Part shown: positions 1 through 64,000 of the stretch, piece by piece
Layout: each line of letters starts with the position of its first letter
How positions within the stretch are numbered: position 1 is the first letter of the stretch
Assembly (NCBI GenBank): GCA_903813345.2
Contig: CAIIXF020000006.1
Span: 1,922,001 to 1,986,000, forward strand
Length of the DNA stretch: 64,000 nucleotides
Source: Owenia fusiformis
Lineage: Eukaryota; Annelida; Polychaeta; Sabellida; Oweniidae
Direction of reading: 5' to 3'
Notes under the pieces: model-generated
Told to the model about the DNA's origin: nothing
Database searches by the model: none
What the model saw: only the letters and a program-made list of their open reading frames with translations
Program-made: the position numbers and the translations under genes

Positions 1-20
1 CAATGCATTAGTCAAGTTAC

Positions 21-992
21 CTTTAGAATTCTTCGTTGAAGGCTTCATCATCTGCTTTAAGGAATTGCTCAGCTCCGCTAACATGTGGCTGCAACCTGAA
101 GTAAAGGAACCAGAACGTATTATTACTTATTTGGATGTGCATTTGACAGTAATTCCTAGATGAAATATTGTTTTTAATGGGAGGTTATGGATACAGGTTA
201 TATCCCGGGGGAAATAAAGAAAATGCACTGAAATTCTAGTATACGAAGATGCAACTCAGATATCGACTATAACACCACTAATGCCTGGGTCACAAATGCT
301 GCGATTCATCGGCCGGCGCCCGGCCGATTGAGTATTTTGTTTCGGGTAAAGACCTGTATGAGGGGTAATGGTCCTAATTACTTGATGCCCATGAAAACAA
401 TGAGAATACCTACCTTGACTACTATCTTCTCCGTCACTGCTTTCCACACGGATGGTCTGTGGGGGAATAGTAGGACTGCAAGCACCTAAAAAACAATTAT
501 TTACTCTATTGTAGATATACTTAATTTAGCTCCTGATTTAATATGGCGAATGGGGAACATTTATTTAGTTACTGCAATGAGTGGCATAAAACAATGAAAA
601 TACCTACCTTGATTACTAGAAATATCTTCTCCGTCACTGCTTTCCACACGGATCTGTGGGGGAATAGTAGGACTGCAAGCACCTAAAAAACAATTATTTA
701 CTCTATTGTAGATATACTTAATTCAGCTCCTGATTTATATGGCGAATGGGGAACATTTATTTAGTTACTGCAATGAGTGACATTACTAGTATATTATCCA
801 TTTTAACACTTTTTGGTTTTCTACGTAAAAATATGCACAGGTGCTATTTTTATCAAAGTACCCAGATTAAAAAAAAATCCGAAATATCATAAAAAATGTA
901 AGCTTAAACGTTTTCAAAAAATGGCATATTTTACCATCATCTGCATCTGTCCCTTCAGATGGACTGAACCAGGAAGGCGTTGAGTCCATCAT
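21..992 (-). CDS. 5' part of an unrecognised minus-strand gene with duplicated exon (partial)
   Basis: Four exons can be joined on the minus strand: 992-935 (starts with two Met codons, MMDSTPSWFSPSEGTDADD), 682-608, 485-414 and 95-21. Each later exon has an AG acceptor and GT donor, and every junction is phase 1, so the frame stays open for about 93 codons. Exons 2 and 3 are paralogous copies (both begin GACSPTIPPQ and contain RVESSDGED). The chain is Ser/Asp/Glu rich without a domain I recognise; the last exon visible is more basic (LAELSNSLKQMMKPSTKNSK). An acceptor-like CTTTCAG lies just before the first exon, so a 5'UTR exon may sit upstream, near the CRE cluster shared with the divergent gene at 1768. 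The gene continues beyond the left edge. The exon structure is well supported by phase; the function is unknown. Confidence 0.55.
396..783. repeat. Tandem duplication of about 195 bp (exon plus flanking intron)
   Basis: Sequence at about 396-588 recurs at about 592-783. Both copies hold the exon, its donor (GTAGGTA on minus) and its acceptor side, followed by the same intron text. Small differences inside the exon (72 versus 75 nt) keep the frame. Confidence 0.8.
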
Positions 993-1485
993 CACTCCTC
1001 AGTCTCTGATAGCTGAAAGTAGAATTGATAATTAGCCTAAATTGTCAGTTCTCTTAACAAGTCTAGTCTAACAATAATAAAAGGGATAAGTCATTTCGAT
1101 ATGTACATGGTCATAGTCATCAATAATCTGATTTTAGGTCATCAGTGCTTTCCCGTAGCATGGGAGGGCGATCGGCTTTTTGATATTTTTGACTATGCAG
1201 TGAATCAAAAGTGAAACCTGGAATTCTTTGAAAAAAGTGAACCCCACTTGGCCAATCCTTGGCTGGCAACGGACCTGTGGTCTATAAGCTTACTAATAAA
1301 ATATAAGCATAGCCTAGATATTTATTGTGTCTATTGAAAATAAAATATACTTACATACAGTTACACCTTTACTAGCCTCTTCTTTATACTATTACTATTA
1401 CTATTACTATTAGACTATATCATATGTGACTATGCGCGTATGTGAATAATGGCGGGCGGTCTATAGTAGGCTATCCCTTTTGCGT

Positions 1486-1650
1486 GTGACGTCGTTGCCT
1501 CAGTATTCGTGACGTCGTAGCCTCAGTATTCGTGACGTCGTAGCCTCAGTATATTGGAGATTTGATGATTACCGTTGCTAACAACCTAGTAGTGACGTCA
1601 CAGTTTTGCCTAACATTCCAAATTTGGGCCTCGCATTTGTGACGTTACTT
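1486..1650. promoter_or_regulatory. CRE/ATF-like site cluster in the divergent intergenic region
   Basis: Three tandem 23-bp units each begin GTGACGTCG (about 1487, 1510 and 1533). A full CRE, TGACGTCA, follows near 1592, and a TGACGTTAC near 1640. This lies between the minus-strand ATG at 992 and the plus-strand ATG at 1768, as expected for a shared bidirectional promoter. bZIP (CREB/ATF) binding is inferred from the motif only. Confidence 0.5.
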
Positions 1651-1767
1651 TCCCGAACTAAAACATAACGCCATTATCATAGGATTTTCGGGAGTCTACT
1701 AGGGTTTCGCTCCAGCTCAGCTGTTAATTCATGCATATCTGTGGGCGGTTATCATGAAACCACACCG

Positions 1768-4700
1768 ATGGACGTTGACCAACAGCAGGAAGGTAAGCTC
1801 ACTCCCCCTGACTGGTTGTTCATTGTTAAACATTCAGTGATTCACGCATCTTATCTTTCGACCATCGGAAAAGTCACATAAGTGACAAATAAGAGATAGC
1901 GATCGATGCCGGTGTGAAATATATTATGGTCCCCTTTCCTAACGGCCCTTACTGGCCCTTATTCAGTGTATAGCCTAAATAATAAGGAAAATAATGGTAA
2001 TTAGGTCACCATAAAAATCAATCGAGAGTAGGACAATAATTTGATAGAACCACCTACCCTTTTACACCGGGGCCAATAATATCGACAATGCATTCATTCA
2101 TTCGATTAAGGGTATTCCCCTTTCAACAACTTCAAAGCATCTGAAACCAACGGGGAATCCCCTGCTCTGTTCAGCACATTTTGTGAGACAGTTGCCATAG
2201 TTTTATTGATCACATTCGATGAAATAATAGTATAATATTTTCAGATCATGAAGACGGTACCTGTAGCTCCATTTCGCTGGAGAGGCTACGTGTATATGCA
2301 GCGTCTAACAACAACAACAACAACAACAACAACATGGAGATGGAGCCAGACGAGGGCAGTGATTTTGATGAGGATGATATTTTGTTGTCGAACAAAATAG
2401 GTATGGAAGCAGTAAATAATGATGTAACCATTCATGCGTGTTATTTATTTATTTATTTATTTATTACTAATTTGAAATCATATGTGATCAAAGTAAGCAC
2501 ATTTTATATCAAACCTCTAAATTTAATTGTATATTCCATATTTTTATTGGCATTATCTATCTTTTTTACAGAGGAAGCCTTTGTGAACAAAGCATCAAAG
2601 AAACATAGTAAGTCAGTTCAAAAAGTCATTTCCTTAATAAAAGAAACAACATTTCATGCTACTTGTAAGTTAGATCACCATATATTATATAATAGTATGT
2701 ATCTTTTATTGACATGTATCAAAACATACACGGCTACGACTAAAACTTCGACTACATCATTTACATCATCAGAACAAAATTCATATAATAAATATTGACA
2801 GCATACAAAAAGGCAAACAAATTTAAAGTGTGATGTGCAGACTATGCTTAATATTCTATATTGTCCCTGTTTGCATACAAACTATTTTATGTATTTTCAG
2901 ATCCTAAACTCCTGTCTATTCAGCAATTAGTTGCGGTGTTTTGCTGCTCGTTTTGTTGTTTGGGCGGACTACTTGTGAGTAGACATAGATACCTTTATTT
3001 TGAGTAAAGATAAAATTATCAGTTACATTTTAAGTTAAGGTCAGTGTGTACGTTCGTCCATTTGTAACTTCAACGAAGATTGCATATAAATTCTGGACAT
3101 ACAAAACTACCTTAAACTGAACGCACTGTTTGATTGAATGAACACGATACAGTATGTACATAATCATAGTCATCAATAATCTGATTTCAGGTCAGCAGCA
3201 TGAGTGATTCCAGGCAATACTTCCAGGGCCTGACTGCAACTGAAAAGCACCAGTATGTGCTTGATACACTTAAAAGAACCTCAAGGTATTATCAATAATT
3301 AAGGATTTAAGCAATTGGCTCAGTGTAATGACTATTTAGTACTAAACAAAAATTTCAAATAGGCCTTAGTTACGCTTTAATCTCCTGTTTAAGAACCCCT
3401 ATTCTTACTTTCGAAAATGTATTCTAGCAATACTATCCAACATGAATCTACTTGTTGTGATTCGATAAACTTTGGCATATATCAATGTTCGTGCATGAAA
3501 TTTTCTGGAAATATTAATAAAATTAAATGTTTGGCGACACTATGTATCAAGTTTGGTGTTCTAACTCCAATTAGTTCCTGAGATAGAGCTCTGTTTGCGT
3601 TATTTGTTGATCACCCCTTGTATCAAGGCAACAAGCATTAAGAAGATTGAATTCAGTCCAAAGCTTCAAAAAGGAGAAATCCACTTTTATATTTTTAAGA
3701 TCCACCATGTTTCAAGAGGAATATCAGCTGAAATATGGTAGGGGGAATACGAGTAGAGTGCGTATTCCAACAAATCTGACTCTGAACGTACAGACTTTCA
3801 CCAGTGTGCATTCTAACGGGTACAGATTCTCATCAGGGCGCATTCGAAACAGTAGAGTAAATCGTACTTGCTGGCAGTATTGATTATCTTAAAGGCAGAA
3901 TCAGATCTATAGGGGTGACAAAATTACAAGCAACATGTACAATTGACCTACCAATCTATTCTGTACAATCTCAATTACAATACCTCCCAAAAGATTCACG
4001 ATATGTTATAAATTGGTAAAGTTATCATGGATTCAAAGTGCAAAAATGAGTTAAAAATGTTTAAATTCTCCAAAATAATAAGAATGGTAACCATTCTTAT
4101 AGAAAAATAATACATTATTGTAAAATCTTTAGTTTTCCTGAATTAAGTGTGCACTTTTGGGATTTTTGAAACAATTTTTTGTTGGGCCATAATCATCATA
4201 CGTAAAAGCATCACTCTTTTGTATATGTTGTTAAAAGGCAGATAAATTAGCATCCATATGAACATTAGTTTCGCTATGTCAATCTGGTATTCCATGCCTT
4301 CCCATCCCAGTGGTTCGTATGCTAAGCTACTGGGCACTCCGCAAACTCAGGGAAGGATTGTATTTTCCTACCAATTTTCCGCTGTGACGTTTCCAATTTA
4401 ATGTAATGTAATGCCGTCTTCATTCCTGCATGAGACTTAACTTGAAATAACATTTTTATGAACTTTCAGTTTTGATGAGAATGGCGAATACGAAGGAAGT
4501 TCCTTTTACATAGAAGGTTTACCCAACTATCCAATATGCTTGAATGCATGGCTGGCTATACTTGGACTGGCAAGCTCAACATTCTATGCCATTAGAAAGA
4601 GATTCATTGGTAAGTATAAGCAGTTTCATACTATAAAAATCATTATAATTAAGGCTTATTAATGGGACAAGGGCAAATTAAGAGCTAGCAACAACATATT

Positions 4701-7700
4701 AATAATTTTTGCAATTTTAATTATAGGAGGTAGTCTTTTGGCGCCTTTACCAAATGGGAGAGGACATGGGATACCGTCTATGGAGGCTATTGCTTGGATT
4801 GAAAGGTAACTGGTCCCATGAAATCTAATTTTAGAAGCCAAAAAGAACATTAATCTAGACATGTCCATCCGGCTTCAAAGGACTTCAATTATGCTTAAAT
4901 TCAGCAATATATACTTCAGTTCTTGCAGCAACGATGGGCCCTTGCATTATTGATTGGCTGGGGGTGTTTTCCCCTTATAAACCTCATGTTTTTTAATACA
5001 CTCAATGTTTATAATTCGTCAATTTCTTAGTTAGAAAGAGCTGTTTAAAATATCTACCGTGTAGTCCATTGTAAAGATTTGCTTATTACAGGTATGCAGC
5101 ACAATTCGGTGACAAATTGCCTGATTCGTTGAATATACATCTGCCAGTGTGTTTGACAAAAACAGACATTTTCAATGACTACAAAACACACATGGGGGCG
5201 GAATCTCTGACAGTATCAGAATCAACATTCAGAAGGCTCTGGAAGCAATACTTCAGCCATGTAAAAGCTCCTAAAGTAAGAAATTATTCTTTATCATACT
5301 GTTATTACATTAGCCATTACATTTTTCTAATTAACATTTAAAACGTGGATTGATAATATTACAATTTCCATAAAGCTTTTGATTTTATTTGCATAAAGTA
5401 TTTGTTTGTTACTTTTTATCCCATCGAACTACTTAAGAAGGCATTTTGAATATAGTACCTCATTTCTAATAGCGATGTTTGTTCAGTTTCTGCTGAATCT
5501 TTTGAAGCAAAGGCTATATACTATGTGATGTAAATACTGTATTTCACACATTTTGAATTGTAAATAGATTCTCAGTCACTGTCAGTGTATTGACTTTTGC
5601 AATTGCCCTGCCTATTTTGTACAGATGGCGTTGACGTGTACATTGATCTTCCTTATATTACAGGCTTCGAAATTCAACAAATGTGACACCTGTGTGAATA
5701 TCCAGGACAAACTTTCAAGGACCAAAGGTAAAAAGGCACGCATGGCCCTTGCTTCACAGCGCGATGCACACCTTAAACAACAAAAGTAAGCATCTTATTC
5801 ATTTTAAGCGATCTTTATTAATTATTATAAATAAGTTTCAAAATTAAAGAAATTCAAAGGCAAAGATTAAGCAAAACAGGGTTTCTAAGAGATACTGAAG
5901 CTTTCAGTTAAGTAACTAGCATTTGTTATCTAAATACCCAATGGTGTGATACAAATACATGTATAATCTTTGATAACTATCTTAAGAAAAATATTTTTGG
6001 TTTATCAATAAGTATAATATGATACCAATGATAATATGCACATATATTGCAGTACCGAACGTAGAAAATACTATAAGCACATCGGAAAAGCCAAGGATGA
6101 CAGTGACAGATATATGTCCATCATTATCGACAGTATGGACCAGGCAAAGACGATGTTGCCAAGGTTTCTGTTAAAGGCCAAATGCATGTCGAGCCTATGG
6201 CTCCTAAAAGTTCACTTAGTAAGTTTTAGGTGCTAGAGTGTTGAAAAAAAATATAAGCCTGCTTTAAGCTTAAATACAAGAACGATGATAATCTGATAAA
6301 TCTGGATGAGCTAAAAATGAGGTATTTATTAGCGGCCTCTAAATCATAATAATATCGCATTATTACATGATGGAGTGTGATATATGAGATATCACCTAGA
6401 GGAAAAATAGTATCCAACTAGCCAGAGCAGAAGGTGATGTTTTATGAGAACATTATATTTGTCCATTGTGCAATTTTGCATTCATAACATGAATATTAAT
6501 CAACAATATTTAACAAAATCTGAAATACAGAGTGAATATTTCGAAATTCCTGAACATATGAATATCTATACTCGCGAAATGCATGTTGTTAAGGCTCATC
6601 CAGGAATTTTAACATTATCACATGTACATCCTTGATCTGACCAATCACAGTCCATCATATAATTTGAGATGTGATAATATATATCGTCAATTGTACTATA
6701 TTATTACAGTGAAATATATTTTATATATTTTAGGTAGGAGTAATTATCCATGGTATAGCTCAGTATGGATTTTTCGATGTCTTCCAATGGCCGCATGGGT
6801 CAAACCTTACGATAACATGCCTTATGATGGCATTATGCTCACTGAAGAAAATCCCACCGACATTGTATGTCCAGATGGATAATTGTGCAAAAGAGAATAA
6901 GAACAGGTAATTTAATTATTTAATGTCATAGTAACACTAGCTCAGTCACTCTTAAGAGGTACATAGGCAGAAACTCAGACAAATCCCATCCCACGGTGAC
7001 CATTTTTGTTCAGCGACCATATTGACCCTTCCTTTTTGAGCAGATGTTCCTAACCCATAAGGCATACGCTTTTTGGTTGCCATTTCAAACCACTGCGTCC
7101 CATGTTTGATCAACTTAAGCGACACTTTTCTGTCACAGATAATAACCTTTCAGATGAGGAATAAACAGCCTACTGTAAATTGCCTATCACTTGAGTCTGA
7201 GAATCACTACAGAATAACTTGATATTATACTGATTTTTTGCAGATACACGTTTGGCTTTTTTGCGCTCTTGGTTCAAATGGGGGTATTTAGAAAAATTAA
7301 AGTGTCTTTCTTGATGGTTGGACATACACATGAGGTAAGAAACACAAAAACTTAAACCCCAACATAAGATGGTATCTATTTTATGTATATTTCTTTAATA
7401 TTAATTGGGCTAATAGAGGACGAATCTGATCTAGAGAAAACCTGGGAATAAGACATTGTTATCATTTTACATTTTGGTCTTTAATCCCCCTTGTTATAGC
7501 TGGGACTATCCATTTTTAAAAATCTCCCCAGTCCATAATTTATTCCAGGAAATCTAAAGATTTCTATATTTATTGGTGAGCCTAATTATTCCATATACAG
7601 AATATCACATCATTTTGAGTGATATCATTTTTATCGCCGAGTTGATATCAAATATCAACACGAGTGAGCGAGGCGATGAAATGATATCACGAGAAATGGT

Positions 7701-10700
7701 GTGATATTTGGTTTATCCCATGATTACAATCATGAGTTTTTAAAAAATCAAAAAATGAATGAAAATCGTTTATCACACGGATATGCGTGTAATAAACGAT
7801 ATCAAATCAATTCGTTTATTACACGGATATACGTGTGATAAACGATATCACACGCATATGAGTTTAATAAACGATTTTCTGGAAAATATCACACGGATTT
7901 AAATAATATCATAAACATCAATAGCTGTTATTGTACTGATAACACATTAATCGTGGGATAATTATTGATATTAATGCCAATTAAGGATACTATATTCAAA
8001 ATAGTAATGTTTGCTTTTTAGGATGTTGATAGGATGTTTAGCAAATTTTCTGTTTGGCTGGCAAGAAAGAGTGTACTAACCCTTATGACCCTAATGGAAG
8101 CTTTTGAAAAATGCTTAAACCCAAGCCCTATTGCTGCAGAAGTAAGTATAATTTAATGGAAATATTGGTGAATTCTACATGTTATCCATAGTTTAGTTAA
8201 TATTTAGATAGAAAACGCAAGATCAAGAGACGAATGAAAGTAATCTGAAAAACTAAATGAGATTGGAAATAATAATTCACATACTTTTAGAACTTTAACT
8301 ATCTGAGGATATAGATATAATTGAATAAACTTGAAATTGAAATGTGATTTTTTCAGATTGAAAACATATATGATGTCAGCTCGTGGATTACACCACACTT
8401 AGAGACTATTAGTGGTCACTCTCGCCCACACTGCTTCAAATTTGTAAAAGAAAATGGGCACACACGCTTATACTATAAGCAGTGGTCCACTGACCAGGTA
8501 GGGATATTTCAGTTACTATAGTTGGATAAACATAAAATGTTGCAGACCTGAACAACAGCAAACTTTGCTTTGACTTAAAAAATCTTACTTCAAAATAAAT
8601 GTAGACTGTCCTGAGGACAACTGGCAAAATGTATACCGATGCTGTAAACCTTGAAAGTACTGTTGACGGAGACCAGAGATCAAGGTCAATAGTACTGTTA
8701 ATGTTTAGAGTTGAGGTACGAATCTAGTATACACACTTTTGCCAGTTGACCAAATAGAGAGGTTAACAATTGTTTTGTTAGTCCGAAAATCCCATGGTTG
8801 CAAGATTTATATATTTGAATTTCATGTTAAGATATGTTTGGTATGTGGATCAAGATATCATATTTTAAAAAGTATAAATTCTTTAAAAGTGATATTCAAT
8901 AATTTCAATTTCAATTTTCACCAATTATGCAAAAGGATTTTCAATTGTTTAAAAGTTTTCTTCAAATTTTTTTTTTTTCAAAATTGTCTTTATTTTTTTT
9001 TAAGTAGCAGTCAACTGAACCTTGTAGTGGTCAACAGTACCTAGTAACAGTAACAGTACCTTGTTGACTTTTAATTAACCAATTAGAATGGAGTATTTTA
9101 ACTGAGGTACTAACAATATGTACTGTTGACTGCTACTTGGTATAGTACTGTTGACCTTTACTAATTGAAAACTGTAACTGTAATCCTTGATTTTAGACTT
9201 GGGAGAGACCAGGTACTGGGATTGTACTGAAATCAATACCAGAAGACAGCCCCCTTAGCATCAAACCAGACTATGGAAAGGCGGATCTGGACAAAGTGTC
9301 GGCAGGGATTCGGAAGGTATTCTTTATTGAAGGTCACACAAATAGCTAGGGTATATTTCTACTAAAATTTGTCTCAAGCTACTATACTTATGCTTTATGC
9401 ATAAATGTACTGTAATTACAAGAAAAAATTATTGATATGGAAATGTTCTTTAAATGTTACAGATACAACACTTCATGCACAAGGAAGAGGACAAGGTTTG
9501 GTGGGAGAATTTACCCTCAACAAGGAAACAGGAAGGTAAATGAACTCCACTTATTTCAAATGTCAATCCTTCTGTAGAATCAACAATAAATGAACATAAA
9601 GTAGAAGTTTATGTCTCAGTTTAATGTCCCAAACCTCTCATTGGTAATTTAATCTGATTATATTCAGAATCTATAATCATCACCCATGTTTGCATTTTAA
9701 AATTATTTATTAAATGTACCACATGTACACTTTACAGAAGACGATTTTGAACAAATTTACCAATGGCCGATGCAGAAGTTATTAGACGCCTCGAGTAATC
9801 TGCACCCAGATGAGGCTGAGACAGCAATACCCAACCCTCCTAATGCTCCTGATAAAATCCCCCCTGTAAGTGCAGAAGTGTAATAAACTGATAAATATTA
9901 ACTTAAAAACTTACAATTGCTTTACATTTGATTTGAACATTTGATTATCTTTATTGCAGAAACAATTTTGGGCTTGGATTTGAAAATTCTTTAAACTTAA
10001 AGTAATTCTATGATTATTTATTCTTAAAATGATAGTATGATACTAGGCATATGATATAAAAAATTAACTTATTCAGGTTCGATTAGGAAAACAACGTGCA
10101 ACCAAAGAAACAGGTTCCTATGCTCTGCTGGACATTCCCATGTATCAAGGGGAATGGCCTCAAGTTGGACAAGTTATAAGTAAAGGTTAGTTTAGGTTTG
10201 TATTGAAAAATAAACCATTTCTAGCGATGTTTTACTCTATACACTTTTCGCTATTTAACATATATTGGAAAAAATTTGGAATAAATCACCAGAGCATTTG
10301 TTTTGTACCTTGTTTAAACTTAAGTTTGACTCCTATCATGTCAAATGTCTTACAAAACAACATATCATTATGCATCATATATTACTAATTAATATGCATG
10401 ATCAAACAAATCTACCTGGTTCTTTCCTCTGGTATCTAACATTGCAATAGACACTAACAACACATATTTAACAAAATTACAGTAAAGAATACTTTTAATT
10501 TCAACAGTGAGTATTGGCATGGTTTATGTTTCACTTTCAGAAAAGGATTCTGTGACAATTCACTGGATGAGGGGAGCAAAGTCCACACCCTGGAGGTTAT
10601 GTAGCAGGAGAGTGGGGAGGTCTTATCAACCATGGCTTGAAACTTTTAATTCATCTAAAGTATTCCATTATTTTGATTTAACCCCTTCCGGACATCTACC

Positions 10701-10749
10701 AAAGGAGGCAAAGGAAGCTTCGGAAAGATATGCAGAAGAATATTTGTGA
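1768..10749 (+). CDS. DUF7869-type transposase-like protein, 19 exons
   Basis: Coding exons: 1768-1792, 2245-2400, 2572-2607, 2901-2974, 3191-3285, 4470-4609, 4727-4805, 5092-5275, 5664-5785, 6053-6218, 6734-6906, 7244-7334, 8022-8141, 8357-8497, 9197-9316, 9463-9535, 9738-9865, 10077-10185, 10541-10749. All have GT-AG borders and matching phases, giving about 746 aa without a stop. The acidic N-terminus has a nine-Asn run. A CxxC (C270, C273) follows in KFNKCDTC. The core shows IIIDSMDQAKTMLP (D330/D333), VQMDNCAKENKNR (D408) and MVGHTHEDVDRMF (E447/D448). These are hallmarks of the family I recall as Pfam DUF7869, thought to have an RNase H/transposase fold. The C-terminus (HWMRG, FDLTPSGHLPK) resembles the chromatin-reader-like tail common in this family. 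An in-frame alternative acceptor at 10508 would add 11 residues. An out-of-frame ATG at 1754 precedes the start. Function is unknown: it may be a domesticated transposase or an active intron-bearing element. Confidence 0.8.
2307..2333 (+). repeat. (AAC)9 coding microsatellite
   Basis: Nine AAC codons in exon 2 of the DUF7869-type gene encode a poly-Asn run; they are followed directly by an ATG (2334), which could act as a secondary start. Confidence 0.9.
3975..4200 (+). repeat. Dispersed repeat, copy 1 (partner at 45495)
   Basis: The stretch from CTCCCAAAAGATTCACGATA through TTTAGTTTTCCTG matches 45495-45770 in the same orientation with scattered substitutions. The second copy has about 40 extra bases before GATTTTTTGTT. 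It lies in intron 5 of the DUF7869-type gene. No coding content is seen. Confidence 0.8.
7610..7910. repeat. Palindrome-rich intronic repeat
   Basis: Several self-complementary motifs lie here, for example GATATCA repeats and an imperfect 32-bp palindrome at 7813-7844 with two mismatched pairs. The motif CGTTTATTACACGGATAT recurs in both orientations. It is probably a decayed foldback or MITE inside intron 12 of the DUF7869-type gene. Confidence 0.6.
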
Positions 10750-11077
10750 AGTTGTTGCCGAATGTACTTTTGATTTGTGAATTGTGTTTATATACAGTTA
10801 CTGCCTACTGGCATAACACTATGGTATTTCTAAAAAAGCGCCTAAGCTAGGGGTTTAATCCTACTTCAAATTGTAGTGTTATTACAATTGTGGTTTTAGA
10901 AAAGTGTTTTTATAAATCACCTGGATCCCTTTTCACTAATATAAGAATCGGCATAAAATACATGAAACACTTATATAGACCTGTTTTATTCAAGCCCTTC
11001 ACCTGTCTTTACAGTTGTAACATTTGTTCAAATGAAATTACTGTGCAAATCACATATGGTACATCTAATCAAAAAAG

Positions 11078-11890
11078 AGGTGTTCCACTTTACAGGTGTT
11101 CCACTTATACTTATAGAGGTTCATTTAACATTAAGTCAGTTTGTCTTGTGACTCTGAAGTGTTCCACTAACAGAGGTGTTCCACTTTACAGGTTTCACTG
11201 TATATGTGTTTCACTTGGGAGGTGTTCTACTTATAGAGGTTCATTTAACATTAAGTCAGTTTGTCTTGTGACTCTGAAGTGTTCCACTAACAGAGGTGTT
11301 CCACTAACAGAGGTGTTCCACTTTACAGGTTTCACTGTATATGTGTTTCACTTGGGAGGTGTTACACTTATAGAGGTTCACTTAACATTAAGTCAGTTTG
11401 TCTTGTGACTCTGAAGTGTTCCACTAACAGAGGTGTTCCACTTCTAGAGGTGTTCAACTTTACAGGTTTCACTGTACATGTGTTTCACTTGGGAGGTGTT
11501 CCACTCACAGAGGTTCATTTAACATTAAGTCAGTTTGTCTTGTGACTCTGAAGTGTTCCACTAACAGAGGTGTTCCACTAACAGAGGTGTTCCACTTTAC
11601 ATGTTTCACTGTACATGTTTCACTGTACATGTGTTTCACTTGGGAGGTGTTCCACTCACAGAGGTTCATTTAACATTAAGTCAGTTTGTCTTGTGACTCT
11701 GAAGTGTTCCACTAACAGAGGTGTTCCACTTTACAGGTTTCACTGTATATGTGTTTCACTTGGGAGGTGTTCCACTTATAGAGGTTCATTTAACATTAAG
11801 TCAGTTTGTCTTGTGACTCTGAAAAGTGTTTCACTGACAGAGGTGTTCCACTTTACAGGTTTCAATGTACTAGTATGTGTTATGGTAGTG
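11078..11890 (+). repeat. Minisatellite of about 120-150 bp units built on AGGTGTTCCACT
   Basis: The phrase TCATTTAACATTAAGTCAGT recurs at about 11121, 11241, 11378, 11515, 11665 and 11785. Unit length varies (120, 137, 137, 150, 120) because an inner 12-14 bp motif (GAGGTGTTCCACT) expands and contracts. Long ORFs across it are by-products of periodicity. The array starts 330 bp past the stop of the DUF7869-type gene. Similar decayed text is seen at 60430-60610. Confidence 0.85.
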
Positions 11891-12646
11891 TAATATAGTT
11901 TGTCTTAAAATGTTCCAATACATGTTCATAAATACCACTGTTCCACAATTGGTTACTTTGACGTGCCAACAGCCAAATGATAATCCGCAACTTGACTTAT
12001 AAGTAGGTTTAAATCAAGAAAATAAAAAACTCGTAACCAGGAAGTTCATCCATTTTGTTACTTACACGTTACATCAAAGTAAACAGTGGTGGAACAGTGA
12101 ATACATAAGGGGTAAACATTTATTTGAAAAATTACTATTAGATTTTAAAAATGTTATAATACATGTCTAGTACATTTCCACTTAATATGCTCAAATCATT
12201 GAGTCATGGTAGTTGATCTTCTTAGTTGATGGTATTTATACAGTGAAACCTGTCCTATGGAACATCACCTCTCTCTCTGTTCACAGGTTTTATTGTACAT
12301 TAAATTCCATCAAATTATGTATAAATGTATATATTTTTGTGATAGTTCAGTGATACAGTCAAATAACAATGAAGTAATATGCCATGAATATTTCAATTTT
12401 ACATGAATAGCAAGCTACAATACAGACTGTACAATATCAATAAAGGTGCAGAAAGTGTAAAAGAAGTAAACAGTCAGACTATCTATCTAGTTCTACAATC
12501 TATAATTGTTATAATTATTGTTGCTTTGTTAGCATGCAGGGTGAGGGTGAGGGTGTAGGTACTAAAACAGGATAAGCACACCAGGCAGGCAGACAGTTAG
12601 TTTATAGTGGTAGTTGGTAAAGGTCTAAGGTGTAGATGATGAGTAG
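11891..12646. other. Non-coding stretch; possible 3'UTR of a minus-strand gene
   Basis: No coding exon is recognised. Near 12240 the text CAGTGAAACCTGT...GGAACATCACC looks like a decayed transposon end. An AATAAA on the minus strand near 12125 would suit the orphan minus-strand exon at 12647-12694. Confidence 0.3.
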
Positions 12647-12694
12647 TTAAAGCTTGGTGAGGTTGAAGAAGAAAGCATAGCAAAACACCATCAC
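12647..12694 (-). CDS. Possible orphan 3'-terminal exon
   Basis: On the minus strand a CTTCCAG acceptor is followed by an open hydrophobic stretch, VMVFCYAFFFNLTKL, and a TAA. It resembles the last exon of a membrane protein, but no upstream exon was recognised on the minus strand up to 25 kb, so this may be chance. Confidence 0.2.
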   Translation of the reverse strand: MMVFCYAFFFNLTKL

Positions 12695-12803
12695 CTGGAA
12701 GTAGAGTAAAATATACAAGTTAAAACGTGCAATTATTATGGAGATTATAGCATTTTGCTTATTATCAATTATCAAATTAAAGACAAATACAGTACATATT
12801 TTA

Positions 12804-13110
12804 ATAGAATCAAAACACCCTGTAACATAGTATTTCCTGAAATAAATAATGTAACTTTATTAAAACAACCATGGTGATACTACCACACATTTCATGTAAA
12901 TATACACTTCATAAGAACAAGACCTATTTTTGTAATTGAATTTGAAGAAAAATGCATTACATGTTTAATACATGTGTGATTGTACAGATATAGAAATAGA
13001 TTTGAAACACCCTGTAACACAGTATTTCCTGAAATAAAATATATAACTTTATTGAAATAGAATTGAAACACCCTGTAACATAGTATTTCCTGAAATAAAA
13101 ATATTAAACA
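12804..13110. repeat. Three copies of a 60-70 bp repeat
   Basis: The motif AAACACCCTGTAACATAGTA followed by TTTCCTGAAATAAA occurs near 12808, 13001 and 13066. No gene is seen around it. Confidence 0.7.
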
Positions 13111-13243
13111 AACATGATGTTACTTTATATAAAAAACCATAACCTATTTAATTATCCTATTTATACTTCAATGAAAAGTCAAATCTTGGTTAAAAGCTAG
13201 ATTTGTCAGTCTTGCCAGCAAAATTAAATCTACTACTGATCTA

Positions 13244-13505
13244 AAGTAGTCCAGTCCTGGCAACAGGACTAGAGTAGTCCAGTCCTGGCAGCAGGACTAG
13301 AGTAGTCCAGTCCTGGCAGCAGGACTAGAGTAGTCCAGTCCTGGCAGCAGGACTAGAGTAGTCCAGTCCTGGCAGCAGGACTAGAGTAGTCCAGTCCTGG
13401 CAGCAGGACTAGAGTAGTCAAGTCCTGGCAGCAGGACTAGAGTAGTCCAGTCCTGGCAGCGGGACTAGAGTAGTCCAGTCCTGGCAGCAGGACTAGAGTT
13501 GTCAA
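13244..13505 (+). repeat. 28-bp minisatellite, about nine copies
   Basis: The unit GGACTAGAGTAGTCCAGTCC + TGGCAGCA is tandemly repeated with very few substitutions, suggesting recent homogenisation. Part of the unit (GACTAGAGTAGTC) is nearly palindromic. No ORF of note is present. Confidence 0.9.
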
Positions 13506-14140
13506 GTCACTAATAGTAAAGGGAAATGATTAACATACCCCACTGACTTATCAAGTCCAGCCTAATATAAAAAAAATAAAAAAAATAAAAAAACTGACTA
13601 ACATTGGTCTGGTATTGTCAAATTTCTAAAATACATCATTTTCCAATCCAGTGGCGGATTCCAGATGTAATTGGAAATCTGTTTATTGTTTTTAAAAGAA
13701 AGTCACAACTTACTTAAGTTAAATTAAATAGGGGCTAAGTTAAATTGATTATCTTGACAAGTTAAAGAATTTATTACTTTTTTGATATGGTCAGGGTTGA
13801 AGAATGAAATAATTCATTTTGCAATTGGCAACTGAAATGAAATGCAAGTTGTGAGTAAAATAGGAAGAAATTCAACTTGTATTGTAGTTTAAAAATAATA
13901 ATGCAGTGATCCCCCAGGATTTTAGAAGAATATAGTTATTTTGAACAACATTTTTTAAATGTTGTTATGTATTGGATTGTTAAATTGTTTATATTGTTTT
14001 AAATTTTAAATTGTTTATATGATACAAATTAATTGATAAGTTGGTATATTTTCTTGAATTCTAATTAAAAGAATAGATATGTTTTAAATGTAAAAATATT
14101 ATATAGGACATTAATAAAGCTAGAAATGTAGATATTAAAG
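13506..14140. other. No gene seen
   Basis: AT-rich sequence with A-runs near 13570. No exon, RNA gene or clear repeat was recognised. Confidence 0.5.
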
Positions 14141-34300: not shown

Positions 34301-37300
34301 AGTGGAATATCATCTTGTGAAAGTACCGTAGCTATCATCAACATAGAATGAATTATTTGTTTCATATTCTTTGACCTGCTTTTGACCAATTATACAACTG
34401 CATGCTTGAAAGTGATACAATTAAATTGGTTTTTCCTGTCATATGAAATAAAAAATAAGTGATTTGATAAAATATGTTTTGTTTACTGGGATTTGCTCAG
34501 TATAAAATTTAATTTCACAATAACTGATGATACTCAAGTCCTTTACTGTATGCAGTATGCACTAGAAGATGTGATCTTACTATTCAGATGCAATGTATTT
34601 CTTTCTTCCAGATTAGTATATTGCCGAGCTCAGTGCGAGAATTAACTCAACTGACAGAGTTATATCTGTATGGGAACAGACTAACAAGTCTACCAGCAGA
34701 GATAGGATATTGTTCAAATTTATTGACACTGGCCCTTAGTGAGAATTCTTTAACTAGTCTGCCTGAAAGACTGGAGCATTTAAAACAATTGAGAGTGCTA
34801 GATTTAAGACATAACAAGCTTAATGAAGTAAGTATCACATTTAACGTGTCTATTGGTATTCACTGTTACAATTGTGCATGGCAGGTATATAGCAGCTACC
34901 TGTTACTCAGTGTGGTGAAATTGCATTGCGAGGAAGCATTTTGACAAAAAAGCTACATAATGAAGGATTTTGTAATTATTAGGTTATACCTAAAATTCCT
35001 CTTAAATAAATAAAATAAGCTTTTTTGTAAAACTACTTGTTAACAAAGCATCAAAATAAATAGTTTGTTATAATTTTACAGTTACCTTACAACTCAAGTA
35101 TAACATGATGAGTTTGTGTGAAATTCTTAAGGATCCTTAAAATAGTTTTCTTTTTCCAAAAATACATTCAATATCAAACCATGAAGTATTTCAGATTAAC
35201 AAACAAGGCTCTTAAAATACTTAATTCAGCTAAAAATAATTTCATTATCAAAAATTTGGGTCTAAATTAACAAGTAGTTAGATTAAGAACTACTTCTGAA
35301 TCTATTTATATTTTTTCTAGATTCCTGAGGTAGTGTACAAATTGACTTCACTTACCACATTATTTCTACGCTTCAACAGAATCAAAATAGTTGGAGAAGA
35401 AATTAGAAATCTTACAGTAAGTGATAAATTCTTCACCTTGCAATGTTACATACCCATATATAGGCATATAAATTAGTCATAAGAGTAAATATTGAGTTGG
35501 TACTGTGGAACTGTGGTACTGGAACAAATCAAAGAATGAAAATTTGAACAACAACAATGTAAAGAGGTCAGCAATTCTTATTATTATATACCGGTAGTTA
35601 TAAAACTACTGCAATTTCACTGTGATGTATCAATTTTTGATGGCATGGCTTTTTAATGTACAAGGTGGGCCAAAAAATGTTAACCATTCTGATTGTGCAG
35701 TACTATAATAGGAGTAGCATTTTTTGGCCAGCCTGAATATATGAATACATAAATGGCAGCATGCTCTGACTAAGATGTTCATTTGACATCTGACTTGGAT
35801 GTACATTTGACATCAAACTGCAGTGTTCTTTAGATCATCTTAAAGTGTAGAAATGACACCTTTGTATATAAACCATGTCTGTTATGTGCTTTTGTTTTTC
35901 AGCATTTATCTATGTTAAGTTTGCGGGAAAATAAAATTCGAGAACTTCCAACAGGCATAGGTCAACTCGTTCATTTAGTGACATTTGATGTCAGTCACAA
36001 TCATCTTGAGCACCTGCCACATGGTGAGTACTAAGTCTATTGGGTTCGTTTTTTGGTGGGATCGTTAATTGTTATGTATGATTCCAATAAAACTTGCAAC
36101 CTTATCGTAAGTTAATATGCTTCCAAAAACGGACCCCTGTACATTATTATTATTATGTGATCATTGTTTCGATGTCACAACCACGAGTGTTGACATATTA
36201 TTATAGTCCCCAACTTTTTTGTGGACTGCAGTTGGTCTTTGGCATTCAGCTGGCATCTGTAACAAATGGCAGTTTGCATGTCAATGCCTTGTCTTACAGA
36301 TGTATTTCCCAGAATGTATATAACCATGTTTGTCTTCCATCAGAACCAAATGAGTCAAAGCTGAGTACCTTGAACAAATCAGGGAGAAAGGAAATATGGA
36401 TTAACTCAAAAATTATATAGAAATGCAAAAAGTTTACATGTCATTTTTTGCATTTTATTGATGATGATGAATGTCATTTTATAAGAATCAAAAATGGACA
36501 GATGTTTTGCTATAGATGTCTATTGATATTAGTAATAGTATTATTATTAATTTACAGTGGGATGATGGAATAGAAAAACAATGTCATAAGGTGCAATACC
36601 CTAACCTAGTCAGTAATCATACTTATCCAGTTCACATACTCCTCTGCAAAGGATTAATATTTGAAATTAGAGAAAATAGCAGCACACGCCTGACCTGTAT
36701 TTGCAAAAATAGGATGTACATGCTCTGGGGTCACCTGATTTCTTAATATTGAGATGAAGTCTTTCAGGATGTAACGGTTGTCTGACCTAAATGTCAGGCC
36801 TGTAGCCAGCTTTTGGCAAAGGGGTTCAGATTTTAAAATATTTCGCTCCCCCTCCCCCTACAGACTACATGCCTGGATTTGATAAAGTATTAAAAATATT
36901 TTCAGAAATTGGTAATTGTGTGCAGCTAAACAATTTAGACCTCCAGCACAATGAATTGCTGGATATTCCTGAGTCCATTGGCAACTTGAAGTCTCTACAA
37001 AGATTAGGTCTTAGGTAAGGATATTGACAAGAGAATATAAATTCATTCAAAAAACTTAACATTTGGGGAAATATTTGGAATAGAATTTAAAACTTACTAA
37101 TTAGATAAATTAACTTCTGAAATATGTTGTGTTTATGCAACTTTACCTAAATGATTCCCAATCCCAATTTTGATCTATTTTGTCAAATCCATTTTTTAAA
37201 TGTATTAGACATGAACTTTCAAGAATATTTTAATGAAGTTTTCTGCTCATCAGCTCAATGAAGGATTGTTGAAAAAAAATTTAAGTGATTTCTGATGATT

Positions 37301-56709: not shown

Positions 56710-59700
56710 ATGGCGCATATCCTACTGCTGAGTGCCATACTGTTGGCGACCATCCCAGGGTTTATAGCACCCCCTGTTGTAGAGAAACAACCTAAACCAG
56801 TAGAAGATACAAATACAGGAGAGGATACTGTGAGTTTGAATCTTATTACCTAACTCTTCTTATCACAGTCTGCCTTTGAGTATACATTTTACTCACACAA
56901 TTGGTCTTTCCTTTGTTGATGAGTATACTCACACAATAACACACATGCGAGTAGGTAGTTACCAGTTTCACCACTAGGTGGCTCGTTCGGGTCAGATAGC
57001 ATGGCGGGTATTGTAGAAAGTTCCCTTTAACTTAAATTAAATCTGTTTTAGTGGTTCGATTTTCATATCACACTTATGTATCTAATAGTAATGCAAATTA
57101 AAATATCTCCAGTAAAAGAAAATGTTATCTGTCTAAAACAAGAAAAATTATTTTACTTTTTGTGATTTTGTAACATGGGGTCTATGGGGAATCAACCCGA
57201 ATTAGAAGTCACTCTTTCAAAAAAAATTACCATATTTTTAGATGTACTTTTACATGTAGATTTCAAATATGACATCACTTTGACTGAATTTCGAATATTT
57301 AATGACGTAAGTAAATATTATTTCTACTGGCATCTAGTCTATTGGCCTTTCCGTTGTTGATGAGTATACTCACACAATTGGCCTTTCCGTCGTTGATCAG
57401 TATACTCACACAATTGGCCTTTCCATTGTTGATGAGTATACTCACACAATTGGCCTTTCCGTTGTTGATGAGTAAACTCACACAATTGGCCTTTCCATTG
57501 TTGATGAGTATACTCACACAATTGGCCTTTCCATTGTTGATGAGTATACTCACACAATTGGCCTTTCCATTGTTGATGAGTATACTCACACAATTGGCCT
57601 TTCCGTTGTTGATGAGTAAACTCACACAATTGGCCTTTCCATTGTTGATGAGTATACTCACACAATTGGCCTTTCCATTGTTGATGAGTATACTCACACA
57701 ATTGGCCTTTCCATTGTTGATGAGTATACTCACACAATTGGCCTTTCCATCGTTGATGAGTATACTCACACAATTGGCCTTTCCATTGTTGATGAGTATA
57801 CTCACACAATTGGCCTTTCCATTGTTGATGAGTATACTCACACAATTGGCCTTTCCATTGTTGATGAGTAAGCTCACAAAATATATGTTATTGAACATGT
57901 AGACCAGAGGATTGAGTGGTCCAAATTATTTTTAGGTAGTCTTGTGTTATAACATTATTTAACTTTGGGTTTAAAACAATGTAAAGTCTGAAATTTGCAA
58001 TTTGATATAGGACTGTAAATGATTTTCAGAGTTTTAACAAAGAAGCAAAAATTATGATTTCATACCATTATGTTGTGATATGTAAGTAATTGATATCATT
58101 TGATGTGGCATTCCAAGAATTTTGTATTCCATGATTTGTAATCTTTAGGTCCTTCCAGCTTTAAGACAGTAGTGTCCTTCTTGGCAGTTAACATTTTGGC
58201 CATAAGAGCAAGCCATGATAGACCAATTAAAAACACAAGTCATACAAAATTGAATCACTGCATTGAATAATGAATGAATATGAACACGTAGGTTCTATTG
58301 TAAACCATGTAGATTTATCTTATTAACCAGCATACATGATTGACTACCAGCATATGTTTATAAAATGCGCAATTATAATATATCCCATTGCTCATGACAT
58401 GGCATCCCATTAAATTAAAACAATACCACAATCATCAATGTTGTCCTTTTATGTTAGTTGTTTTATGAGCTTTGCAGTCAGGTTTATTGTTTATACATAC
58501 TGACTTTGTGTATACAAATAAAACATGTTTCACTGTAGAAATTGTATATGCCAGTATGATTTTGTCATCACATGATGATATGATCTAGAATTTTATATTC
58601 AGTAAAACCTGAAAGTGTTCAGATTAGCAGGTGTTCACATATCAAGGTTTTATTACAATGACAATCCATGGCAGAGTAAAAGAAATGAAACCGAAAAAAT
58701 GTGTTCACATTCAGAGGTGTTCATATAACAGAAGTAAGAAAAAGTCCTCCTAAATTGTCATCTCACTAAAATCTGGCATATTCCTTTAGGTGAAGAAATA
58801 ACTGAATATTCTTGTTTTTTAGGATACTGGTCTAGAATATGATCGTTACTTAAAAGAGGTAGTATCCATATTAGAAGAGGATGAGGGCTTCAGGAAGAAA
58901 TTAGAGGAGTCAAACATTACTTATATCAAGGTACATCTTGCAAAAGTGACATCTGTTATTTTGGAGTCTACAGATAACCTATCTATAGTTTTACAGATAA
59001 CTTATCAGTAGCCCATTATTTAGATATAGGAGTTCAAAAATCTATAAATTGTTACTGTATTATAATATATTTTGACCGTTTGATGAATGTTGAATTATTT
59101 TAGAAATGTAAAAGCCTGTTTTTTATTATGCAATAAGCATGGATGTTTTATGTGTGCCCAAAATTGAATCATTAAAGTAAAGGATTATAGAGACAAGCTG
59201 GGGTATCATTTCTTTTTACTGGCAGCATTATTTTTGTATTTTCTGAGTATTATATCCTGAAATTGCTCTATACTAATATTAAATGCAATATTCACATTGG
59301 GTATTTATTAAAAGAAAAGATTCCAATATTTTACACTGTATCTTTTTCCACTTAACCTACTAGAAGCTGCTGTCTGGTATCTTCTCTTTAAATTGCCTGT
59401 CTCTGGTAAATATGGCAATCATGGGTAAATCCATTGAAATGTCCAGACTATGAAGTCAATATATTAAAAAAAGGAAACTGTTATAAAATGTTATGCGTAT
59501 ATGTAATTGTTATATTGTAGAGTGGTGAAATAGCTCAGCATTTAGAAATGGTCTCCCACAGAATCAGAACTAGACTAGATGAGCTGAAACGCCGTGAATT
59601 GACACGTCTTAAAGAGCTTATGCACGCAAAAATGCAAGCAGCAAAAGGTATGTCTATTGTTTTGAGAAGTTTTTTAAAACTCAATGGTCTTGTGATTTAA

Positions 59701-61571: not shown

Positions 61572-62354
61572 TTATGAATTCTCTTCTTTTACTAAGATTT
61601 CATCAAGGATTTCCCTCAATAAATCCTCATCAGTTTCTTCCAATTCCTGTTCAGTTACTGTTTTTTGTATGTTGGTTATTGCATTCATTCCCCTTGCAAA
61701 CACAGAACAATGTACATGATAAAGATGCCTTCGAGCATGAACATCGCCCAGTTCTACATACCTTGCCCTCCGATGCACATGTGCACTTAATGAGCTTGAG
61801 AATTCCTTCAGGGGCACAGGGTGTATCCTTGGGCATTGTTGTTGGGACAAGTGAGCCTGTGCTATTAATTTCCCAACCATAATCTTTTGGAAGGATAAGT
61901 GGGGGGTCAGGCATATCAGCATTTTTCCATATAGCTACTTGGAAATGAGCTCGCTTCACATGCTGGGAAAATGCTTCTGTTGTTGGTGGGAGGGATTTTA
62001 GCTTTGGTGCATTTGTAATGTGTTTTGCAGCATTTTATTTGCCCATACAGCATATCTCACATCAGACATTTTGTCTGTGACTTTAGGTGTAATTCCATAA
62101 CATCTAGATACAAATTCTGTTCAAGTTTTCTCAACTTCAGTCATGTCTGCAGTGACATCTCCCAAGTTAGTGAGTGAGTATCTATTTAACACCTTCAGGA
62201 CTGTTAGCTTGCCAATTCCATGCATGCAAGATGTCGTATCACTGCCAGAGAGACCATGCGCAGCTAACAAGTTTGGGATTTTTAATTTGTGTTCATTTAC
62301 GGTTGCATTAATGTTAATGTTTGCTCTGCCAGATGATGTTCCCTCCATTATCAC
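61572..62354 (-). pseudogene. Inverted partial copy of the FEN/PIN-like, Cys-rich gene (broken)
   Basis: Read on the minus strand it repeats the 3' half of the gene at 62333-63802: the MEGTSSGRANININATVN region, GLSGSDTTS, GIGK and the Cys-rich tail. It is broken by an in-frame stop near 62120 (Ser codon in the other arm changed to TGA), by a one-base loss near 62025, and by a further frame shift near the C-terminus. Where the right arm has a stop (63329), this arm has a Trp codon. It has no start of its own and lacks the 5' half. Confidence 0.85.
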
Positions 62355-63802
62355 TATTTGATGAAAATGGAGAAATTAATATCACAACTTCAAAATCAAC
62401 ACTGAAACAAAAGTTACAGATTGAGGTGACCTCAAGAGGAAACAATTGCAATGTACGTGTCGTTGATGGGTGTGCCATCCTTTGGATCATAACATGGCCG
62501 ATGGCTGGCAAAATTGAAAACTTCTGTATTGCTTTCACTAAGTACATCCTGAGATTCCTAACCGAATCAGATGTATACCTTATCTTTGACAGATATAAAG
62601 ACAATAGCATAAAGAACAGCACCAGGTCATCTCGAGCTCAATCAGCCAGGAGAGTGTATAAGTTCAGCTCCGACACACCTCTCCCTGCACAGAATGTTGT
62701 ACTGAATGTGACTGAGAACAAAGTCCAGTTGATAAAGTGTGTCATCGACCATCTCACTCAAAAAGCTAGTGAAGGATCATTCTCCAACATCCTTGTTATC
62801 ACAGGTCCTGATCCAACACCTGTACAAATTCACAAAGGCAATATTGACCAACGTAATGACTTAAGGAACACTCAAGAAGAAGCAGATGTTGATATCGTAC
62901 ACCAGGTTCTGCATGCTGCCAGTAAAGGCCAACAGAATATCAGTGTACTCAGTGATGATACTGATGTTTTCCTTCTACTTCTTCATCACTGTCTCAAGCA
63001 GAAGTTAATGGAAAATAACATCATAATGGAGGGAACATCATCTGGCCGAGCAAACATTAACATAAATGCAACCGTAAATGAACACAGATTAAAAATCCCA
63101 AACTTGTTAGCTGCGCATGGTCTCTCTGGCAGTGATACAACATCTTGCATGCATGGAATTGGCAAGCTAACAGTCCTGAAGGTGTTAAATAGATACTCAC
63201 TCACTAACTTGGGAGATGTCAATGCAGACATGACTGAAGTTGAGAAAACTTCAACAGAATTTGTTTCTAGATGTTATGGAATTACACCTAAAGTCACAGA
63301 CAAAATGTCTGATGTGAGATATGCTGTGTGAGCAAAGAAAAATGCTGCAAAACACATTACAAATGCACCAAAGCTAAAATCCCTCCCACCAACAACAGAA
63401 GCATTTTTCCAGCATGTGAAGCGAGCTCATTTCCAAGTAGCTATATGGAAAAATGCTGGTATGCCTGACCCCCCACTTATCCTTCCAACAGATTATGGTT
63501 GGGAAATTAACAGCACAGGCTCAATTGTCCCAACAACAATGCCCAAGGATACACCCTGTGCCCCTGAAGGGATTCTCCAGCTCATTAAGTGCACATGTGC
63601 ATCAGAGGGCAATGTATGTAGAACTGGGCAATGTTCATGCTCCAAGGCATCTTTATCATGTACATTGTTCTGTGTTTGCAAGGGGAATGAATGCAATAAC
63701 CAACATACAAAGACAGTAACTGAACAGGAATTGGAAGAAACTGATGAGGATTTATTGAGGGAAATCCTTGATGAAATCTTAGTAAAAGAAGAGAATTCAT
63801 AA
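62333..63802 (+). pseudogene. FEN/PIN-like nuclease-fold protein with Cys-rich tail, one in-frame stop
   Basis: An intronless frame of about 490 codons is interrupted by one TGA at 63329-63331; both sides are in the same frame. Motifs in order: TQEEADVDIVHQ (EEAD at 62876-62887), VLSDDTDVFLLLL (62948 on), HGLSGSDTTSCMHGIGKLTV (GSD at 63128-63136, GIGK at 63155-63166). The tail, CTCASEGNVCRTGQCSCSK then CxxxCxCxGxxCNN, is a CxC-type metal-binding pattern. It ends in an acidic ETDEDLLREILDEILVKEE. The order acidic-acidic-GxD-helix-hairpin-like GIG resembles XPG/FEN1 nucleases; this is inference. Similar proteins, in my recollection, are multicopy in marine invertebrates and may be mobile-element borne. 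The 5' end runs into the inverted arm, so the true N-terminus is lost. Confidence 0.7.
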
Positions 63803-64000
63803 ATTCAAGATATATATAGCACCATGAAATGACCCTTGTGGAACATCATTATTATTATGTAGGTTACTTTTTACTCATTTCAGATATTTTATATGTGAGA
63901 AAGAGATCATAATCAGATGTATTTAGTATTATTTATTGATAATTTTGTAGGAAACACTAATATCCATTTGATCTTATCACAGAATGAGACATTTCATAAA

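Follow-up and report, generated by a model that had tools for sequence, protein, structure and literature searches.

The window analysed here, a stretch of 64,000 nucleotides from the annelid Owenia fusiformis (contig C6, positions 1922001-1986000), carries a 19-exon gene, gene 1, whose product is a DUF7869 protein. We conclude that gene 1 is very probably the transposase of a giant, intron-rich DNA transposon bounded by terminal inverted repeats (TIRs). Since the introns travel with the element, it would move as DNA and not via spliced RNA. An earlier reading of the same DNA, hereafter the original prediction, had proposed a domesticated host gene. The element and its genes are known here from the genome sequence alone.

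Gene 1 lies in a giant element with TIRs and target site duplications

The genome searched was the window's own (498 Mb, 525 contigs). Coordinates are those of the window, in which position 0 is C6:1922000 and negative positions lie to the left of the window. A protein search of the genome with gene 1, in which 60 of 189 candidates were scored, revealed, among the scored candidates, a series of almost identical exons on contig C10, arranged as in gene 1, and many of these exons also on C4. When the loci were aligned, the common unit stopped sharply at -9621 on the left and at 13683 on the right, which delimits an element of 23,305 bp (C6:1912379 to C6:1935683) with its right 13.7 kb (1-13683) inside the window. 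The element begins and ends with AACAGATTTCC...GGAAATCTGTT, and its inverted repeats end in AACAG..CTGTT. The left TIR measures 1,439 bp (-9621 to -8183) and its partner, the right TIR (12351-13683, minus strand), 1,333 bp; in the self-inverted match they are 84.7% identical over 886 columns and 90.2% identical over 726 columns.

All three copies of the element (23,305 bp on C6, 24,279 bp on C10 and 29,421 bp on C4) have both TIRs, and each is flanked by a perfect 4-bp target site duplication (TSD) that differs from site to site: TATT on C6 (-9625 to -9622 and 13684-13687), TTGA on C10 and TTAT on C4. The original prediction had suggested looking for TIRs beyond 1-11 kb, and there they were found, with their TSDs, in the three copies. 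A genome search with the terminal 236 bp returned 28 matches, seven of which were full-length ends, namely the six ends of the three elements and a solitary end on C11. Besides this one-ended remnant on C11, an internal remnant of the element was found on C8.

The three copies share long stretches of high identity, as would segmental duplications in which the inverted repeats are incidental. We attach almost no probability to this explanation, because homology ends at identical TIR ends in 3/3 copies, each with a different 4-bp direct duplication, and the same pattern recurs in two distant families (see below). Furthermore, the 110-bp stretches flanking the element on C6 and C10 have no other match in the genome, in a search that omits very common words, which makes the copies unlike parts of larger duplicated blocks.

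Two repeat arrays lie towards the right end of the transposon. A subterminal tandem array with a period of about 137 bp (11080-11881) is present in all three copies, with varying length. The other, a tandem array of 9.6 copies of a 28-bp unit (13241-13508), lies within the right TIR and occurs also in the left TIR; its units are possible candidates for transposase binding sites.

Gene 1 and its DUF7869 domain

The gene 1 model (1768-10749, plus strand) was obtained by setting exon ends by hand at GT-AG sites, and a script tested the donor choices. Three open chains resulted. One of them comprises 19 exons and 18 GT-AG introns and encodes 746 amino acids, while the two alternatives (744 and 697 amino acids) deviate solely at the exon 17/18 donors. 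The exons of the 746-amino-acid chain lie at 1768-1792, 2245-2400, 2572-2607, 2901-2974, 3191-3285, 4470-4609 and 4727-4805 (exons 1-7); at 5092-5275, 5664-5785, 6053-6218, 6734-6906, 7244-7334, 8022-8141 and 8357-8497 (exons 8-14); and at 9197-9316, 9463-9535, 9738-9865, 10077-10185 and 10541-10749 (exons 15-19).

The Pfam model DUF7869 (PF25273) matches amino acids 349-533 of this protein with 243.4 bits (E = 1.9e-72), well beyond its curated cut-off of 26 bits. Given this score and the fact that 18 of the 19 exons, together with 6 bp of splice flank, are identical in the C10 copy, the predicted gene structure is far above chance. The 746-codon gene with 18 in-phase introns described in the original prediction was rebuilt exactly, and the proposed DUF7869-type protein was borne out by the profile search. 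Moreover, all the residues named there (D330, D333, D408, E447, D448 and a CxxC motif, C270-x-x-C273) are found in the protein.

DUF7869 marks further giant transposon families

Across the genome, PF25273 gave 100 exon-level matches at E <= 0.01, all 111 first-look candidates having been scored. Two further families, A and B, were delimited by comparing two copies of each, locating the stop of homology on one side and searching the genome with the terminal 77-79 bp. The 25 ends of family A (AAGTCCTGAC...) form 10 pairs of 20.6-35.6 kb, one 72.5-kb pair that is perhaps a nested insertion, and three unpaired ends. Family B (AACAGGGTGC...) has nine ends, forming three pairs (28.1, 28.4 and 31.1 kb) and leaving three unpaired. 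Perfect 4-bp TSDs flank all three family B insertions read (ATAT, TTCG and ATTT) and six of the seven read among the 11 family A pairs (AAGA, ATGA, TTAT, ACAC, ATTA and AAAA), so that 12/13 insertions read across the three families have a 4-bp TSD.

In families A and B together, 13/14 TIR pairs enclose PF25273 matches, and the transposases of both are likewise split by introns, at partly different places as judged from the exon-wise matches. The claim of the original prediction that so intron-rich a gene is rarely mobile does not hold for these families. DUF7869, so far an unnamed Pfam domain, thereby gains a context: from the elements compared here, it appears to mark giant, intron-rich TIR transposons with 4-bp TSDs, of which it would be a hallmark protein. 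The finding also goes against the working rule by which a transposase gene rich in introns must have been domesticated; an assumption of intronless transposases is stated for vertebrate elements (PMC3369469). The annotation of such genomes may therefore list these genes as host genes.

A closer relative of the window family, on C9, has transposase exons 50-86% identical to those of gene 1. A remote relative, L046 (NHDG01000113.1), the only contiguous one found, is a DUF7869 protein of 1036 amino acids (PF25273, E = 4.9e-21) with a weak OTU-like N-terminus, encoded in a marine bacterial metagenome-assembled genome. Another, unrelated marine bacterial genome of this type, L047 (NZIP01000049.1), shares 7,883 identical bases with it, which makes eukaryotic contamination the probable source of both. 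No DUF7869 relative was found on viral contigs in two scans.

Candidate catalytic residues

Exons 10-14 (6053-8497, plus strand) hold the candidate catalytic residues D330, D408 and E447/D450 together with the Pfam match. These residues were compared in five proteins (the window family, the C9 relative, family B, family A and L046). D408 and D450 are invariant in 5/5 and D330 is retained in all; the family A D330 lies in the preceding exon, the first aligned family A residues being probably intron. The block G-H-T-H-x-x-x-D450 is kept as well. In L046, E447 is replaced by Asp and D448 by Lys; in the four sequences from the animal, D408 and E447 are 39 residues apart. The likeliest triad would be D330-D408-D450 (DDD) or D330-D408-E447. 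The DUF7869 protein would be a DDD/E enzyme of the RNase-H-like type.

Age, integrity and selection

The copies were compared outside the TIRs and tandem arrays and only over stretches of at least 96% identity, so the following counts understate divergence, most of all for C4. Between C6 and C10 we counted 15 substitutions in 17,951 bases (1/3,978 exonic and 14/13,973 other; p = 0.22), and between C6 and C4 57 differences in 12,308 bases (15/3,036 exonic and 42/9,272 other; p = 0.76). The C10 exons of gene 1 contain no substitution; the one exon that differs, exon 2, has a 9-bp difference in a poly-Asn run, corresponding to three extra Asn codons. In gene 2, the divergent second gene of the element, C10 and C6 are distinguished by one substitution and one change of 3 bp. 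The C10 copy has both genes open (749 and 578 amino acids). The C6 and C10 copies thus appear very young, with both genes open, and neither is marked as a selected host copy. As two nearly identical copies, they also offer a natural test of transposition.

When gene 1 was compared with the C9 relative over 522 codons, a few of which may be misaligned at exon edges, nonsynonymous divergence (dN) was 0.27 and synonymous change was saturated (proportion of synonymous differences, pS, 0.87). This indicates that purifying selection acts on the protein across diverged families. The original prediction had suggested that the gene may be under selection; purifying selection is seen between diverged families, as with the C9 relative, and not between the young copies, and it does not single out the window copy.

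A domesticated host gene would explain both the reading frame kept intact across 18 introns and the purifying selection between diverged relatives. Against it stands the position of gene 1 in a unit bounded by TIRs and TSDs, of which a complete and a broken copy exist on other contigs: the near-identical C10 copy, with the same exons and introns, and the internally broken C4 copy, each with both TIRs and a TSD of its own. Near-identical copies of this kind were the finding that the original prediction had named as its refutation. Furthermore, the gene type is multicopy, as the 100 exon-level matches attest. We therefore consider domestication very improbable.

Weighing the transposase assignment

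Several observations weigh against gene 1 being the transposase of its element. As to an RNase H fold, no significant match was obtained when a profile of the core was compared with solved structures (best E = 0.033, heparosan synthase; a retroviral integrase at E = 1.5), and AlphaFold, run on the L046 stretch as a single sequence, returned a mean predicted local distance difference test score (pLDDT) of 37. The C4 copy is broken, with exons 11 and 13 absent, exon 4 cut and exon 12 out of order. An empty site for the C6 or C10 insertion was not found in this assembly. Among the family A elements, the 20.6-kb pair on C2 encloses no listed DUF7869 match, the insertion at C9:1336391 has AATT and TTAA at its TIR edges and so no matching TSD, and the TSD AAAA falls within an A-run. 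Finally, purifying selection was not seen between the copies in the exon comparisons given above, although this is what one would expect if they are young.

It is also conceivable that DUF7869 is cargo and that another enzyme mobilises the element. The catalytic activity of DUF7869 is itself putative, giant transposons elsewhere carry accessory genes, some of them without a transposase (PMC12477816), and one family A TIR pair lacks a listed DUF7869 match, which could reflect a non-autonomous derivative. We find this explanation unlikely. A known transposase domain is absent from gene 2, which besides gene 1 is the sole gene modelled in the element, and DUF7869 is common to three families that have different TIRs and the same TSD length, which argues that TSD length goes with the DUF7869 protein.

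If gene 1 encodes the transposase, transcription from a TGACGTC-rich region shared with gene 2 and splicing of the 18 introns by the host would yield the enzyme, which would bind the ends, excise the element and join it to DNA with a 4-bp stagger. Its NIPBL-like C-terminal domain (see below) may tether it to DNA or chromatin. The product of gene 2 would be an accessory factor, possibly of a ParB/sulfiredoxin-like type, whose role may be to bind the DNA of the element itself or to protect it.

Relation to known transposons

Sola elements have 4-bp TSDs and DDD catalysis. Both features agree with the TSDs read here and with one of the two likeliest triads. Moreover, the Sola1 element Sola1-1_Ec32 of Ectocarpus belongs to the same size class, at 21.5 kb, and carries on the opposite strand a gene for a ParB-like/DNA methyltransferase protein of 1104 amino acids (PMC12477816). 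The O. fusiformis element resembles such a giant Sola1 in exceeding 20 kb, in its opposite-strand second gene and possibly in motifs of gene 2 that look ParB-like by eye. It differs in that gene 2 encodes only 579 amino acids and has no methyltransferase match, and in the 18 introns of its transposase. Curated bivalve Sola1 elements, with a mean of only 5,445 bp (PMC10294476), and the absence of any family model backing ParB in gene 2 also speak against the assignment. By layout and description, giant Sola1 elements would be the closest described kind. Overall, we give somewhat less than an even chance to the view that the element belongs to the Sola superfamily (Sola1), as a representative from animals, and does not form a new superfamily. 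We describe it as a giant TIR transposon that carries two genes, has 18 introns in the transposase gene and is possibly a Sola1.

Other groups were compared and set aside. The Kyakuja-Dileera-Zisupton (KDZ) elements are likewise giant DNA transposons with accessory genes (PMC12730594, PMC12477816); their TSDs of 7-8 bp (PMC12730594), compared with 4 bp here, rule them out. CMCT elements share short TSDs (2-5 bp) and are described as usually having CA..TG termini and, in the stretch from D2 to E, the motifs C(2)C and H(3-4)H (PMC12730594). The ends found here (AACAGATT, AACAGGG and AAGTCC) are not CA..TG, and amino acids 408-447 hold one Cys and H-T-H only. Kolobok, with TTAA-specific 4-bp TSDs and a second protein, KolobokP (PMC9587614), is similar in both TSD length and the presence of a second protein. 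Neither Kolobok nor piggyBac fits, as 0/12 matching TSDs are TTAA; at the remaining one of the 13 insertions read (C9:1336391), a TTAA match requires that the left edge be moved by 2-3 bases. Polintons, whose TSD is 6 bp (PMC10045372), are ruled out by the 4-bp TSDs.

DUF7869 goes unmentioned in the papers searched, subscription papers being mostly outside that search. Among titles and abstracts on giant or intron-rich TIR transposons, Academ, Sola and NIPBL, none describes this family or a link to NIPBL.

The C-terminal domain and NIPBL

The last exon of gene 1 (10541-10749, plus strand; amino acids 678-746) encodes the bulk of a C-terminal domain that resembles the end of human NIPBL. NIPBL is the cohesin loader and is involved in Cornelia de Lange syndrome. 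Amino acids 668-730, mostly from exon 19, match residues 1559-1622 of 1642 in NIPBL chain 6wge_E (E = 2.8e-6), and up to E = 10 the PDB matches to the domain are all NIPBL (6wge_E and its longer twin 6wg3_E). Compared directly with the NIPBL piece, the gene 1 C-terminus scores 35.7 bits, the best of 499 scored shuffles reaching 9.8.

In the genome, the domain was found at 13 places with E < 0.05, the three element copies included, and at a fourteenth with E = 0.96. For nine of these 13 places, a listed DUF7869 match is present at a distance of less than 25 kb. At C3:1245198 there is a DUF7869 match about 30 kb away, but on the wrong side, and the three places on C4 (28150306, 28154790 and 28730917) have no listed match within 45 kb, although weak matches may have escaped detection.

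Nine of the places (L057-L065) were fetched for profile building. A profile of gene 1 and six of them (without L059, L064 and L065) matched NIPBL at 6.4e-6, the next match being at 0.81. With gene 1 excluded, a profile of five (without L062-L065), three of which lie near DUF7869, still matched NIPBL at 1.7e-5, the next match being at 0.33. In the reverse direction, the NIPBL piece found seven places in the genome, all among the domain places, and the best of these (C4:28150327, E = 8.4e-4) is one without a listed DUF7869 match nearby. These results make homology between the domain and the human NIPBL C-terminus well supported.

The NIPBL gene of O. fusiformis itself was located at C1:13111491-13112749; a later exon of it, at C1:13125509, is conserved and can be aligned with residues 1400-1461 of the human chain. 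In the 16 kb read at this locus (C1:13112401-13128400), the best match to the domain covered nine residues and lay on the wrong strand (E = 0.059). As far as it was read, the locus thus appears to lack the domain that the 13 places elsewhere in the genome carry. Whole-genome searches revealed no separate NIPBL copy of the domain, though they could miss an exon that is diverged or lies farther away.

One possible scenario, which we put forward tentatively and as less probable than its negation, is that in a lineage leading to vertebrates NIPBL captured its C-terminal domain from a giant transposon of the DUF7869 kind, in the form of a last-exon cassette comparable with exon 19. In case of such a capture, the two proteins would have in common a module that tethers them to DNA or chromatin. 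It may also be that NIPBL donated the domain to the transposons, or that both drew on an older source. The C-terminal region of P2X7 offers a precedent for a vertebrate protein tail shared with mobile-element proteins; there, both the domain and the host protein are different ones. Through the NIPBL link, the question of where the end of a human disease gene came from and what it does becomes directly testable.

In the same chromosomal region, a giant family A transposon (C1:13145362-13176116) is situated some 20 kb downstream from the last NIPBL exon identified (C1:13125509). Its transposase is encoded on the opposite strand, and the proximity may be coincidental.

Gene 2 and the intergenic region

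The divergent neighbour noted in the original prediction proved to be a gene of 14 exons and 579 amino acids, gene 2, which runs leftwards on the minus strand from 992 past the window edge to -7527 with all 13 introns GT-AG. Exon 1, with the start codon, lies at 935-992, exon 2 at 608-682, exon 3 at 414-485 and exon 4 at 21-95 (all on the minus strand); exons 5-14 are to the left of the window. The acidic exon 2 is a near-duplicate of exon 3, the two forming a tandem duplication (197-bp unit, 93% matches) that doubles the acidic segment. A variable tandem array of CCATACC-like units (-1467 to -517), longer in the C4 copy, occupies the intron between exons 5 and 6.

The start codons of the two genes are separated by 775 bp (993-1767), presumed to be a shared promoter. 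It had been predicted to be rich in cAMP response elements (CREs), and TGACGTC does cluster here: five of the 13 matches in the window, at four sites (1487, 1510, 1533 and 1593/1594), fall within 1487-1600, and shuffling predicts 1.93 for the whole window. Three of the four sites sit in one 23-bp tandem repeat.

The gene 2 protein has no significant match in Pfam, PDB, PHROGs or NCBIfam, and none to a methyltransferase. A ParB/sulfiredoxin-like pattern, visible by eye only, spans amino acids about 230-390 (first a G-G-x-H block, then a GL....AR..AN.HN block), and we treat this as a lead only. A divergent open reading frame (ORF) of family B (L024:840-1643, minus strand) shows the motifs GGxH and GLxxxxARxxANxHN in the same order as gene 2; the regular expressions were composed after viewing both sequences and prove little. 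The similarity between this ORF and gene 2 is weak: 16/1000 shuffles reach the local-alignment score, BLASTP gives E = 0.017 over 18 residues, and in phmmer 68/2000 shuffles (1311 reported) reach the real score of 1.4 bits.

Relatives of gene 2 were also found in the C9 family, which matches exons 5, 12 and 13, and in D4, which matches exons 12 and 13; neither covers the ParB-like middle. In the C9 family the gene 2 relative is again divergent from the transposase and is 36-44% identical. No convincing gene 2 relative was seen in family A within the part read, and none of seven ORFs chosen by eye from the 51 listed rose above the Pfam cut-offs.

Other features of the window

Two similar coding stretches in opposite orientation lie at 61572-63804, comprising ORFs of 337 and 156 amino acids on the plus strand and one of 127 on the minus strand. 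They are likely to belong to another mobile element; Pfam gave no match to any of the three. At 57299-57925, a repeat is apparent in the translations (INNGKANCVS-like units); counting both strands, three of its frames are open. Finally, a leucine-rich-repeat coding stretch at 34531-34944 (LRR_8, E = 6e-13) probably belongs to a host gene.

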